Below are positions 21,418 through 56,122 of a stretch of DNA of 64,000 nucleotides, piece after piece. This DNA comes from Dichomitus squalens LYAD-421 SS1. Lineage: Eukaryota > Basidiomycota > Agaricomycetes > Polyporales > Polyporaceae. The translations under genes and the position numbers were made by a program. The stretch covers positions 939,327-1,003,326 of the forward strand of contig NW_006766890.1 in assembly GCF_000275845.1 (NCBI RefSeq), given 5' to 3'. Position 1 is the first letter of the stretch; each line of letters opens with the position of its first letter. Under the pieces are notes generated by a model that had not been told where the DNA came from, searched no databases, and saw only the letters and a program-made list of their open reading frames with translations.

Positions 21418-22996
21418 ATGAGCGATATCACCACATACGAAGCCATACGCGGCCTCACCCTCGCCCCCATCGCAGACTGGGCCAGCATCCTCACTCTCAT
21501 ATTCGGGGGCTGCTGCAGGTACGCCACCTTCCCTCCCGCGCGGTCACCGAACGCACAGATGCACGCACAGATGCACGCACAGATGCTCACACCGGTGCCC
21601 TTCATGCAGCAACGCGCTCACGCTCGAGCAGCTCACCCGCGCACACCCCCACTCGGGCTCCCTCATCACCTTCGCCCAGTTCCTCTCCATCTCCGCCCAC
21701 GGCCTCCCCAACTTCCTCACCCTCCCGCCCCCGCACCAGCGCCCCGTCCGCTGGCTCCCCGTCCCCCGCCTCCGCAAGCGGCGCGTCCCGCTCCTCCCCT
21801 ACCTCGTCCAGGTCGCCCTCTTCTATGCCGTCTCCCTCCTCAACAACAGGGCGTTTGCGTACCGCATCCCCATGCCCGTCCACATCATCTTCCGCAGCGG
21901 CGGGCTCGTCGTTAGTATGCTCATGGGTTGGCTGTTTGCCGGCAAGAGGTGCGTCCTGTGTCTTGCGAACGCCGCGCGCGTCCTGCCGCTCGCGTTTGCA
22001 CCGTACGCAGCATCGCTCACTCACCGCGCACCGCGCCCTCGCAGGTATAGCCTGACGCAGGTCGCGTCCGTGCTCCTCGTCACCACCGGCGTCGTCCTCA
22101 CCACGCTCTCCGCGTCCAAGCCCACGACGAACGCTCAGCCGTCGTCGTCGTTCTCTGCCGAGTCGCAGTCTGCCACGGGGCCATCTCCGACCGTTCAGTA
22201 CGCCACCGGCATCGCGATCCTCGCCCTCGCCCTTGTCTTCTCGGGCGCGCTCGGCCTCGCGCAGGACTGGACGCACAATCGCTACACGCGCGCCCCGCCC
22301 GCGCCCGCGAACGGCCACGCGAAGACGAAGGCGAAGACGAACGGGACGCCCCCCGCGGCGAGCCCGAGCCCGCCCATCGGGAAGCGCACAGACGACGACC
22401 ACGTCCAGCCGTGGCAGGAGAGCATGTTCTACCTCCACTTCCTCTCCCTCCCCATGTTCTGGTTCGTCCGCGCCGACCTCGCCGCGCAGGTCTCCGCGCT
22501 CAGCGCGAGCCCGCCCGTCCTCCTCGCCCTGCCCCCGTCCCTCGCCGCGTCCCTCGCGGGCGGGGACTGGTCGGGCGCGTTCACGCCCGGGAAGCCCGCG
22601 CCCCCCTGGGCGCGTCTCCTTCCCCTGCCCCTCGCGAACGCGCTCGCGGGGCTCGCGCGGGCGCTGCTGGGGATCCCGAGCGCGTACGTGCCGCTCGCGC
22701 TGACGACGCTGACGAGCATGGTGTGCGTCGCGGGCGTGAACCGGCTCTCGGCGCGCGTCGCGAGCCTGACGGTCACGCTCGTGCTCGTCGTGCGCAAGGC
22801 GGTGTCGATGGCCGTCAGCGTCGCGCTCTTTGGTCCGAAAGCGGGCGCGGGCGCGGCGGAGGTCGACGGGCGGATGATGGCCGCGGGCGCGGCGGGTGTG
22901 TTTTTGGGCACGCTGGGGTACGCGCTCGGGTCGCGGAAGGGGGGCGCGGAGGGGGAGGGGAGGCGCAAGGGAAGGGAGAAGGAGAAGAGGGACTGA
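21418..22996 (+). CDS. Nucleotide-sugar transporter, UAA family (YEA4/SLC35B4-like)
   Basis: A polytopic membrane protein predicted to exchange a UDP-sugar (UDP-GlcNAc or UDP-xylose in relatives) across the ER or Golgi membrane. Start MSDITTYEAIRGLTLAPIAD, first membrane span WASILTLIFGGCC. An intron follows, then TFAQFLSISAHGLPNFL and a basic loop. Next is the family-defining VALFYAVSLLNNRAFAYRIPMPVHIIFRSGGL, described here in pieces: SLLNNRAFAY, IPMPVHIIFRSGG, and MLMGWLFAGKR. Later spans read TQVASVLLVTTGVVLTTLS, ATGIAILALALVFSGALGL and FYLHFLSLPMFWF. The C-terminal part has the repeat-two signature VNRLSARVASLTVTLVLVVRK. A cytosolic Lys/Arg-rich tail ends EKEKRD, which could act as a di-lysine-like retrieval signal. 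Two introns, high GC. The substrate is not certain. Confidence 0.88.
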
Positions 22997-50303: not shown

Positions 50304-53300
50304 TTACAAGAAGCGGACCAAGAAGGAATACACGGCTACAGTCAACACGGCTCTGGTCTGGTTGTTCCACATCTCCTCTCGCCTCGGAGCCTCACCCATC
50401 ACTCCACAAAACCAGTCGAACCGCATGAACAACAGGCTATACTCGCCACGCTCCAGCAGCCCAATAACCCTGCCCCATTCCGAGAAGACGCGAATGACCG
50501 CGCCCTCGATAACGGCCGCGACCCACCTCCAGCCGCTCACGGTTGTCCTCATGTTGCTCACCCGCTCGGGGTGAAGCACGAGGTGACGGAGGAGGTCATG
50601 CGCGACATTCGCTACCATCATCGAGACACCGAAGAGTGTTCCGGTCATGATGATGGACTGACCGAGGGCGACGTCGAAGAGCGCGACGAAGACTCCCAGA
50701 ACGAGGAACAGGACGCTGCCGAGCATACACTCCGCCGCGTTCGGCGAGAAGTCGCGGTAGGAGTGCTCGGGGTAGAGTTTCACGAGCCTGCCGTCACCCT
50801 TCGACCACATGTAGAACCTCCAGTACGTCCTCTTCCCTCCATACCACCACGGGTGCGTGACCTTCACGGCCGGCGCCGCGAAGAACCCCTCTCCGCCATG
50901 GAGCAGGGAGTAGTCGCGCATTTTCCGGCAGTAGTCGATGTCCTCCCCACCGCCTGTCTTCGGGAACTGCAGGTCAAACGCCAGACCATCCGCAAGGTTC
51001 CGGCGCGCGATGAGGTTCGCCGTGACGCCCCAGGGCACGTCCTGTGCAATCTTCTCGGCGATGTCCCAGAAGTACGTGACGCCCGCGAGGTGCACGGCCG
51101 CCTCGAAGATGGTGACAGCAAGGGGGAAATGAGCGTTGCCGACGAACCCTGCCGCGCTAGGGTGTGCACGGATCGCCTTCTCGGCCTCGATAAGGATGTT
51201 TGCGTCCGGGTTGACGTCGTCGTCGAGGAAGTGCACCCATTCCGCTGCGGATTCTAGGAGGCCCCGGTTTCGGGAGTAGGACGCCCCGAGATTCTGCGCG
51301 TTTACTCTGATGCGGACGTCAGGACGATCTCCGTACTTCTGCATGAGCTGATGGATGCGGGGAGAGTCAGGGTCGTCGACGACGACGATGAACATGACGG
51401 TGCAGGTGGGGCTCGCCCGCAGAGCGAGGAAGGCATCAAGGTGTTTCATGAGAACCCGATAGCACGGGATCACGACGTCGAGAGTGAGCTTCTGCTGCAC
51501 AGCAGGAGCCCGCTGCCTAAGCCAGGCTTCTACTGCAGAAGTAGCATTGTCCAGGGTCTGGAAAGTCCACCCGGCCGCATGAACCTTGTCGTAGCGCGCG
51601 TTGCCGTCCCCACCAAGCTTGTTGCAAAGCCTCGAGGCAATCATGGCGGAACAGCCCCAGCGCCGGTACAGTTGATACAGGAACGGATCGCCATCCTGGT
51701 TCGTGAAGCCATCCGGGATGACGTCGCCCCCAAATATCTCGAGATGAGTGCGGTGGACCACTGGGAATGTCGGGAAGCCGGGGAAAGACGTATCGGTGAA
51801 CGCCACGCAGCCAACACCGTGTGGCACGCTTTCCGCAGCAGCGAGCTCGGAAAACTTGCGATGGATGACTGACATCCAGTTGGCGTCTTGCAGGACGACG
51901 TCATCGCCCATGAGGACATAGTAGTCGCACTTGTCGTCGAACGCCCTCCGCGCGCAGTCACGCCATAGAGCGCAGACGTGTCCTCTCGGACGACGGCTTG
52001 GCGGCAGTGTGGTGATGTGATGGACCCCATGCTCGCGAAGAAGTACTTCGGCAGCGTTACCCTCTCCAGTTCGCCAGAGGAAGGCGTCGTCTTCGTCTAT
52101 GGCCAGGTAGATGTGGAACTGGTACCTCTCCCCAAGACGCGCGACGTCGTCTGCAGTGGTCCTCAGTAGCGAGTCGGCAAAACGCCCTAGATTAGTGAGG
52201 CACTCCTCGGGAGAGCTCAGACCGCGAGAAGTTATTGGAAGGAGGACTGCAAAGGTGATGGCATCGGCTGCGAGGTCGACCATGTCGCTACTCTGGAGGA
52301 GGCGGAGGAGGCTAGACCGCTCAGCCGCAGTCTTCGAATGAAGCAACTGTTCAAGCTGTTCGCGGATCCACTCTCCTGTCCTGCGCATGCCCTCCTCCAA
52401 GGACACCTGCGGCTCCCAGCCGAGCGTCTCCTTCACGAAAGTATTGTCGGAGTTGCGGGAGCCTACGCCTTGAGGTCTGTCTAGTTTGTGGTCAAACTTG
52501 ACGGATTCCGGATCGATGGACGCAGCACGGAGCGCGATATCCGCGAGCTGGCGTACGGACACGGCTTGGTCCGAGCCAATATTCACCGGCTCCGAGCAAT
52601 CCGACTCCAAGAGACGGAGGATCGCTTCGACAGCGTCGTCGATGAAGCAGAAGCTCCGCCTCTGGGAGCCGTCCCCCCATATCTCAAAGTGCACTTCCGG
52701 ATCCTGAGACAGCTTCGCAGCAAGTGCTTTGCGAAGGAAGGCCGCTGGGACCTTCTCGCGTCCTCCATACCAAGACCCCATGGGGCCATAGATATTGTGA
52801 AAACGCGCAACTCTTACCTGGAGGGTAGACGCATGCTGATGCAGTCCAAGCTCACTCACGAGCTTCTCCAGGCCATAGAGGCCTTGTGGATGCGGCGGAG
52901 GGTGCTTCCACACGTCGCCCTCGGCAAGTGATACGTCGACACCGGAGCCCTGGAGGGACTCTGGGTAGACGCAGGCCGACGACGCGTAGAAGAACCCTCG
53001 CACTCCGGCGGCTTTGCAAGCAGAGAGGAGGTTAGTTGTCATCGTATGATTCTCTTGATATATGATGAAGTCGTTGGCAGCGTGAATGGTGCCCATCCCC
53101 CCCATGGTGGCCGCGAAGTGGAGCACGACATCGACGCCTTGGACGACGCGACAGCAGAACGAAGGATCACAGAGGTTCCCAAGGACGACCTCTTTGACCA
53201 AGGTCGCAGCAAATGGGGGACGGCCCACTAGGTCGGTGACGCGGACGTCATAGCCGAGGGAGACGAGCTTTCGAGCAACATGGCCCCCCTACCGCGTCGA

Positions 53301-53393
53301 GTCAGTGACACTATCGTCGACTTAAACGCCGGTAAGACTCACGATAAAACCGTGTCCACCGGTAATGAGTATGAGTTTCGATTTGTCGAGCAT
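50304..53393 (-). CDS. GDP-mannose 3,5-epimerase-like domain fused to two glycosyltransferase domains, membrane-anchored
   Basis: A three-part protein of about 1011 residues. The start MLDKSK (53393) lies 57 bp after a TATA box. One 54-nt intron (53289-53342) joins ILITGGHGFI to GGHVARKLVS, giving the NAD-binding GxxGxxG. Residues 1-335 form a short-chain epimerase with MGGMGTIHAAND, SSAC (119-123), YGLEK (155-159), RFHNIYGPMGSWYGGREKVP and WGDGSQRRSFCFIDD, the pattern of plant and bacterial GDP-mannose 3,5-epimerase. Residues about 355-605 form a GT-A-like domain with YYVLMGDDVVLQDANWM (acidic metal site 478-480) and GFTNQDGDPFLYQLYRRWG. Residues about 615-845 are a GT2 domain: DVVIPCYRVL, AQNLGASYSRNRGL, FLDDDVNPDAN (705-708), GGGEDIDYCRKM. 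Two or three hydrophobic spans follow (about 871-915) plus a last one at the end. The product could be GDP-L-galactose or GDP-L-gulose used by the attached transferases; this is inference. One intron only. Confidence 0.85.
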
Positions 53394-54508: not shown

Positions 54509-56122
54509 ATGCAAGAGCCACAGTACCGCTTCACCGAGTCCCAGGACTGGTTCAGTCCCCACAAGGACGCATGGAGAGCCGTCTTCGGCCGCGTCACCGC
54601 CTCCAGTCCGCGAGTCTTGGAAATCGGTTCCTGGGAGGGCAGATCTGCCGTATTCCTCTTGACGGAGCTCTGCCGCAATGACGGGGAGCTCGTCTGCGTC
54701 GACCACTTCGACCTTCTGCAGACCGAGGCGGGACGCGGCCGTTACGCCGCCCTCCAGCATAACCTCTCCCTCACCGGCAAGCCGCATCGCATCATCGGCG
54801 ACTTCAGTGTCCCGGGTCTGATGACGCTCCTACGCGAGGAGATGTCTGCCGCACGCCCTGGCTTCGACTGGGTCTACATCGACGGCTCGCACGAAGCAGA
54901 CGACACCTTCCTCGACGGCGAGCTTGCATGGCGCTTGGCCCGCAAGGGTGCAATCTTTGTCTTCGACGACTACCACTGGAACTTGGAACCTGAAGACAGC
55001 ATTCGCCACCCGAAGCGTGGCATCGACGGGTTCCTCGCACTGCATGCCGGACAGTACACGCGTCTGTCCTCGGACGACCAGTACCAGATGATCCTTCAGA
55101 AGACCACCGACATGCGCATCGGTTTTCTCATGAAGAACAACTTTGCCACGACGGCCGCGTCTCAGGGCCTGCAGAAGTCTGGCATCAACGTCGCCCTCGC
55201 CATCGACGACGGGTACGCAATTGCTGCCGCAGTCGCTATCCGCAGCACGGTGATCCACACCAGAGGCCCGGTCACGTTCTACGTATTTAGCAGCGACCTG
55301 TCTGATGTTTCGAAGGCGAAGCTGGAGCAGTGCGTCGCCGATGCAATAGACAAGACTATACGGTTCCTGGACCTACCTGCGGCCCCTCCCTCCCCACTCG
55401 CCGACGTTCCTTTCCCTGCTGGGCCCTCGTGGGGCAAGATCGCTCTGATTCCGATCTTGCCGGAGGAGGTGGAGAAGGTGCTCTACTTCGACGCCGACGT
55501 GTTAGTCCGAGGAGATCTGAACGAGATTTGGGACACGGACCTCAGGGGCAAGACGTTGGGTGCGGTTCCTGACGTCGGTTACCCGATGGGCCACGAGGAC
55601 GTCGGCCGCATGAAGTACTTCAACGCGGGAGTCCTACTCATGGACGTAGTGCGCTTGCGAAAGGACTTCGGTTCTCTACATGCACAGTGCGCGAAGATGG
55701 CGAACTCGAAGTTCAAAGATCAGGACGCGCTGAACATGCACTGCCGAGATGACTGGCTTTGCCTCGAGATGAAGTGGAACGCGCAGGGCCTCGGCACGTA
55801 CGCCGAGGATGTCACCCCGGAGCGCGCTGCGTTGGGGCTGGAGTCGATGGTTGAGCCATGCATCATCCACTTCACTGGTGTGATGCACCCGTCCATGGCG
55901 GAGGCGCTCGAACCGTTCGTGAAGCTGAGCGGGAAACCCTGGGGGTACTTGGGGGCTCCGCACAACCCGTATTGCGAAGAGTGGTGGCATGTGTGCGAGA
56001 AGACGGCGTGGAAGGGGTGGCGGACCTCGGCGGAGCGCCAGCTGGAACGCCTGCTAGAGATGGAGGAAGCGATTCAGGTCGGTGTCAAGGCGTTCAGGAA
56101 GAAAATCACTGACTTGCACTAG
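54509..56122 (+). CDS. SAM-dependent methyltransferase fused to GT8 glycosyltransferase
   Basis: A single intronless frame of 537 residues starting MQEPQYRFTESQDWFSPHKD. Residues about 10-200 form a class I methyltransferase of the Methyltransf_24 type: RVLEIGSWEGRSAVFLL (SAM motif I, 36-52), GELVCVDHFD (acidic end of strand 2), RIIGDFS, FDWVYIDGSHEADDTFLDGE and GAIFVFDDYHW. A short linker leads to a GT8 domain (about 225-500): INVALAIDDGYAIAAAVAIR, TFYVFSSDLSD, KIALIPILPEEVEKVLYFDA with the metal-binding DAD at 328-330, ADVLVRGDLNEIWDTDL, YFNAGVLLMDVVRLR, KFKDQDALNMHC and CIIHFTGVMHPS. It is thus a retaining transferase of the UDP-sugar type with an attached O-methyltransferase. There is no signal peptide or membrane span, so a cytosolic or cytosol-facing role is likely. 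It is divergent from the epimerase-transferase fusion, with which it may share a glycan product. Confidence 0.88.
   Translation: MQEPQYRFTESQDWFSPHKDAWRAVFGRVTASSPRVLEIGSWEGRSAVFLLTELCRNDGELVCVDHFDLLQTEAGRGRYAALQHNLSLTGKPHRIIGDFSVPGLMTLLREEMSAARPGFDWVYIDGSHEADDTFLDGELAWRLARKGAIFVFDDYHWNLEPEDSIRHPKRGIDGFLALHAGQYTRLSSDDQYQMILQKTTDMRIGFLMKNNFATTAASQGLQKSGINVALAIDDGYAIAAAVAIRSTVIHTRGPVTFYVFSSDLSDVSKAKLEQCVADAIDKTIRFLDLPAAPPSPLADVPFPAGPSWGKIALIPILPEEVEKVLYFDADVLVRGDLNEIWDTDLRGKTLGAVPDVGYPMGHEDVGRMKYFNAGVLLMDVVRLRKDFGSLHAQCAKMANSKFKDQDALNMHCRDDWLCLEMKWNAQGLGTYAEDVTPERAALGLESMVEPCIIHFTGVMHPSMAEALEPFVKLSGKPWGYLGAPHNPYCEEWWHVCEKTAWKGWRTSAERQLERLLEMEEAIQVGVKAFRKKITDLH

Follow-up and report, generated by a model that had tools for sequence, protein, structure and literature searches.

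A conserved gene of mushroom-forming fungi joins a GDP-mannose 3,5-epimerase-like domain to two glycosyltransferase-like domains

The gene and its domains

We analysed a stretch of 64,000 nucleotides (the window) from the wood-rotting polypore Dichomitus squalens LYAD-421 SS1, situated within contig C8 (1.15 Mb) of the 40.3-Mb assembly. At 50304–53393 on its minus strand lies a single gene with two exons and one intron, whose product of 1011 amino acids (aa) comprises, from N- to C-terminus, an NAD-dependent epimerase domain resembling GDP-mannose 3,5-epimerase (GME or GM35E), a glycosyltransferase-like middle domain, a glycosyltransferase family 2 (GT2) domain and hydrophobic helices. An open frame of 974 codons (50304–53228, minus strand) runs unbroken across all three domains in the DNA itself. 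The features are as follows (window coordinates).

50304..53393, minus strand: whole gene, encoding the three-domain protein of 1011 aa; near-identical to database protein P0001
53343..53393, minus strand: exon 1, 17 aa, beginning of the NAD-binding fold (ITGGHGFI)
53289..53342, minus strand: intron of 54 bp, GTGAGT...GGTAG (GT...AG); splicing yields GGHGFIG
50304..53288, minus strand: exon 2, remainder of the protein
52341..53393, minus strand (intron inside the range): GDP-mannose 3,5-epimerase-like domain, residues 1-333, from Pfam, residues, profiles, trees and structural alignment
51504..52271, minus strand: middle domain, residues 357-612, predicted glycosyltransferase A (GT-A) fold; motifs GDD, FPGxPTFP and NQDGDP; without a Pfam family
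50742..51488, minus strand: GT2 domain, about residues 618-866, from Pfam; motifs FLDDD, PWGVTAN and GGGED
50310..50738, minus strand: C-terminal part, residues 868-1010, four long predicted helices, probable membrane anchor

The length of the spliced product matches that of P0001, a database entry for D. squalens that differs from the gene product at 2 of 1011 residues. The gene is present in one copy; the sole further match in the genome (C8:806434–806778) is a distant stretch belonging to another enzyme of the same superfamily (31% identity).

The Pfam Epimerase match (E 1.5e-31) lies in the same frame as the match to Glycos_transf_2 (PF00535; E 1.2e-10, 42 bits against a curated cut-off of 23.3). 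The latter domain resembles GT2 glycosyltransferases also in its DDD and ED motifs, which have recognised roles in that family, and FLDDD, PWGVTAN and GGGED are kept across relatives; a search of the domain against PDB sequences gave two weak matches (E 3e-4 and 0.01). The C-terminal hydrophobic spans recorded by the first-pass annotation of this DNA were borne out, with peaks at residues about 880, 904 and 1006 persisting in the family mean of 120 proteins. A predicted model of the protein (predicted local distance difference test, pLDDT, 90.2; predicted template modelling score, pTM, 0.81) places long helices at these peaks, the first two and the last of the four tail helices coinciding with them, while lesser peaks at 362 and 645 fall on predicted strands of the two transferase folds. 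The tail is a probable membrane anchor. GDP-mannose synthesis is cytosolic, and for this reason the simplest reading would be that the tail forms a hairpin in the membrane and leaves the three catalytic domains facing the cytosol.

Among the relatives listed (the best 120 of 371 found), domain content and order were identical in 120/120, a count that used profiles built in part from the same proteins. This search and a separate search with the epimerase (best 120 of 7998 displayed) each scored at most 8000 candidates, and fusions outside Agaricomycetes may have escaped them. Named species among the matches listed belong to genera such as Ganoderma, Trametes, Laetiporus, Auriscalpium, Suillus, Mycena, Tulasnella, Rickenella, Lactarius and Ramaria. 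A taxonomy look-up, which also covered Dichomitus, assigned Tulasnella to Cantharellales and Rickenella to Hymenochaetales; the other named genera we take to be Agaricomycetes as well. Presence in both Cantharellales and Hymenochaetales indicates that the fusion is likely old within Agaricomycetes. The earlier description of one protein with epimerase, GT-A-like and GT2 domains stands on frame, Pfam matches and relatives alike; the accompanying statement that fungi do not normally use such an epimerase needs correcting, since the fusion is spread across Agaricomycetes and is not one fungus's oddity. Databases name these proteins 'NAD-dependent epimerase/dehydratase' or 'glycosyltransferase family 2 protein', and one short Lentinula protein (P0128) GDP-mannose-3'',5''-epimerase. 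In Lentinula aciculospora the epimerase (P0128) and the transferase part (P0242) are separate, on contigs of equal size (1370632), reflecting a split either of the gene itself or of its model.

A GME-like epimerase domain

The motifs by which the N-terminal domain had been likened to GME (SSAC, YGLEK, RFHNIYGP, GGREK and WGDGSQRRSF) are all present in the gene product. Catalytic residues, with numbers transferred through alignment with GME, were counted in the 98 of the 120 fungal proteins with an epimerase piece of >300 aa and compared with 123 GME rows; a few rows that looked fungal were excluded by id. The Ser-Tyr-Lys triad (S143, Y174, K178) is found in 97/98, 98/98 and 98/98 fungal rows, respectively, and the Cys-Lys acid/base couple (C145, K217), the Cys-acidifying Arg (R306), the diphosphate Arg (R243) and N203 each in 98/98. 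The GxxGxxG cofactor motif reads GGHGFIG here, its first Gly occurring in 79/98 aligned rows with a gap in 17; TGGxxF[IL]G lies within the first 120 residues of 66/120 proteins, a low count probably due to late-starting gene models. As set out in the available part of the review PMC8787198, the base in GM35E is Lys and the catalytic Cys is acidified by Arg, where GDP-fucose synthase employs His and Lys, respectively. This GM35E state occurs in 98/98 fungal rows and, together with the triad, N203 and R243, means that the residues for C4 oxidation and two proton transfers are present.

Profiles and trees point in the same direction. The GME profile comparison gave 254–355 bits, as opposed to 37–101 bits for GalE/RmlB, and fungal sequences grouped with GMEs with support of 99/98 in the second tree and, in a quick tree that carried a warning about long branches meeting at GalE, of 99.7, while a grouping of fungal sequences with GalE was rejected (p 0.0012). 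An ordinary UDP-glucose 4-epimerase (GalE) or dTDP-sugar dehydratase (RmlB) is thereby ruled out, and the first refuting outcome named in the first-pass annotation, a tree that places the epimerase with these families, did not occur. The GME rows in the tree came from 19/80 prokaryote loci, 7/80 viral loci and 16 proteins of the epimerase search, with 5/6 RmlB and 5/6 GalE loci passing the motif filter; two metagenome sequences labelled GME at first (P0134, P0137) were recounted as fungal after the first tree placed both in the fungal clade. In structural alignment the fungal domain shares 44% identity with the Arabidopsis GME structures, and it resembles these (2c54/2c59) and the Methylacidiphilum enzyme in predicted fold, NAD motif, Ser-Tyr-Lys triad, Cys-Lys couple and both Arg residues.

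Several observations weigh against a simple equation with GME. The fungal epimerases form a sister clade of the sampled plant and bacterial GMEs and are not nested within them, which corrects the earlier likening to GME in this respect. Several positions that hardly vary among the 123 GME rows are altered in the fungi, among them the Asp following LAA, the Ala of PAxPQ, the Thr of QTRSF and the Arg–Gly preceding RNSDN. Unlike GME, the fungal domain is also joined to a pair of glycosyltransferase domains and a probable membrane anchor. Moreover, a grouping with GDP-fucose synthase was not rejected by the tree test (p 0.67 in the first tree, where one row for that enzyme sat on a branch 4.2 long; p 0.149 in the second, which gained 3/11 further loci, 8 having failed the motif filter). 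GDP-L-fucose synthase (GMER, Fcl) does share the short-chain dehydrogenase/reductase fold, a Cys acid and a GDP-sugar substrate, but employs a His base and a Lys acidifier (PMC8787198, available part), where the fungal rows have Lys and Arg (98/98), and is only about 26% identical to the fungal epimerase. The assignment to the GME family stands despite the tree test because residues, profiles and identity carry it, and on sequence, catalytic residues, predicted structure and tree a GME-like epimerase is well supported. The sister position and the several fixed differences mean that the product could be GDP-L-galactose, GDP-L-gulose or another epimer, and the fungal-specific substitutions could change the proportions of the products. 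Bacteria and viral contigs (L106-L185; 466 viral stretches, best 80 kept) commonly carry GME-like genes too, which qualifies the earlier view of the enzyme as known chiefly from plants.

The middle domain and genomic surroundings

The middle domain gave no Pfam match better than E 0.053 among 10 members and no useful match in a PDB sequence search. Its predicted model is confident (pLDDT 90.8) and has GT-A enzymes as top structural matches, in agreement with the GT-A-like label it had been given; identity to the GT-A enzymes WrtF fucosyltransferase, PcManGT, RmlT and TarS is 10–13%. The domain is thus predicted to fold as a GT-A glycosyltransferase. Duplication of a single transferase domain within the protein was rejected, the profile comparison of the middle and GT2 domains giving a probability of 0.3%. 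A prokaryotic origin was likewise dropped after the genome collection had been scanned for a pattern of the domain (32 stretches, 0 relatives), as was a derivation from giant-virus tandem transferases after a pattern scan with alignment A5 (52 stretches, 0 relatives), a blunt scan that also missed the phage-like contigs L019–L025. A sulfotransferase-like N-terminus suspected in P0297 was unrecognised by Pfam and abandoned.

The contigs L019–L025 carry a tandem transferase with DD-like and FPTFPIIHR motifs and a second transferase-like part behind, 29–30% identical to the middle domain over residues 95–206 of the domain piece. The frame in L023 (L023:4818-6233, 471 aa, motif FPTFPIIHR) differs from the fusion in having no epimerase, and has a collagen-like protein and another transferase-like frame nearby. 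In the liverwort Calypogeia fissa, a 144-aa part of the middle domain (P0254; 59% identity over half the domain) is annotated on a 10.7-Mb contig, owing to contamination, to transfer or to descent from an old gene.

The divergent, head-to-head neighbour of the fusion gene, at 54509–56122 on the plus strand, is a 537-aa frame fusing a methyltransferase (Methyltransf_24) to a GT8 glycosyltransferase, with a single match in the genome; this neighbour possibly shares a pathway with the fusion gene. A further frame (21872–22996, plus strand) matches the UAA nucleotide-sugar transporter family.

Proposed function and its alternatives

Combining sequence and models, we propose, with a probability of roughly 0.6, that the protein is a membrane-tethered enzyme converting GDP-mannose to an L-sugar donor and transferring the L-sugar onto a membrane-bound acceptor. 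In this scheme the enzyme would be tethered to the membrane facing the cytosol; its GME-type domain, with bound NAD, would convert GDP-D-mannose to GDP-L-galactose, GDP-L-gulose being either a second product or the main one; one glycosyltransferase domain would move the L-sugar onto a membrane-held acceptor and the other would add a neighbouring sugar, donor making thereby being coupled to chain building. Here we infer the reaction, which transferase takes up the product, the acceptor (a glycan that is lipid-linked or of the membrane), the topology and the channelling; an L-sugar product and glycan are a reasonable inference.

The epimerase might instead be related to GME yet catalyse a different reaction, for example one epimerisation of GDP-mannose at C3 or C5 or the formation of another GDP-sugar, and feed the same transferases. 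The sister position to all sampled GMEs and clade-specific substitutions inside or beside conserved stretches fit such a change, but every residue named for double epimerisation is kept, and we regard it as rather unlikely. We consider it improbable that epimerase and transferases serve separate reactions, fused for joint expression or scaffolding, with GDP-mannose, GDP-L-fucose or UDP-sugars as donors. Relatives that pair the middle and GT2 domains, with a listed sequence beginning at the middle domain (P0253, P0256, P0276, P0282), would agree with it, though they may be gene fragments, and the fusion is intact in all listed fungal proteins. It also draws on two neighbouring genes (C12:734399-738143), one for GDP-mannose 4,6-dehydratase and one for GDP-fucose synthase, whose tested exons scored 295 and 124 bits, respectively, against solved enzymes; with both genes present, GDP-L-fucose has a route of its own in this genome. 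The GDP-fucose synthase model also matches a second stretch, C20:382104-382948.

Two other explanations carry very little weight. Supply of a plant-like, ascorbate-type pathway is suggested by the place of GME in the plant pathway (PMC6678494, available part), and is made most improbable by the fusion with two transferases and by the reported confinement of VTC2, the next plant step, to green plants (PMC4396506, available part). That annotation joined adjacent genes is less credible still: the parts do stand apart in some database entries (e.g. P0128 and P0242), and 9/120 entries listed in the epimerase search, which admitted short proteins only, hold epimerase and middle domain without GT2, but the 974-codon frame is uninterrupted in the DNA. 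This frame, near-identical P0001 and the identical layout of the listed proteins from many species dispose of a chance frame or annotation artefact, and a real and conserved fusion, neither a one-off nor a gene-model error, is well supported.

The fusion is less exotic than first thought, being common among mushrooms, yet we found no description of a fungal GME fusion in the literature searched, most subscription journals lying outside it; the available parts of the main texts of PMC8787198 and PMC6678494 contain no words beginning with 'fung'. A glycosyltransferase-like domain without a Pfam family is brought to light as well. Our fuller proposal, tentative and a little short of even odds, is that Agaricomycetes make a so far undescribed glycan with an L-hexose (L-galactose, L-gulose or an epimer) by a single trifunctional membrane enzyme that produces its own donor from GDP-mannose and delivers it to one of its two transferases, and that the middle domain is the founding member of a new glycosyltransferase family. 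To our knowledge, mushroom glycans are not expected to contain L-galactose or L-gulose. Sugar analysis by gas chromatography–mass spectrometry (GC-MS) or by high-performance anion-exchange chromatography with pulsed amperometric detection (HPAEC-PAD) does not distinguish D from L forms, according to the available part of PMC6269047. If the proposal is correct, some of the 'galactose' of polysaccharides or glycolipids from mushrooms may be L-galactose, and the fusion would offer a compact enzyme for L-sugar donors and products. Its sequence hints that mushrooms build an overlooked L-sugar-containing glycan.
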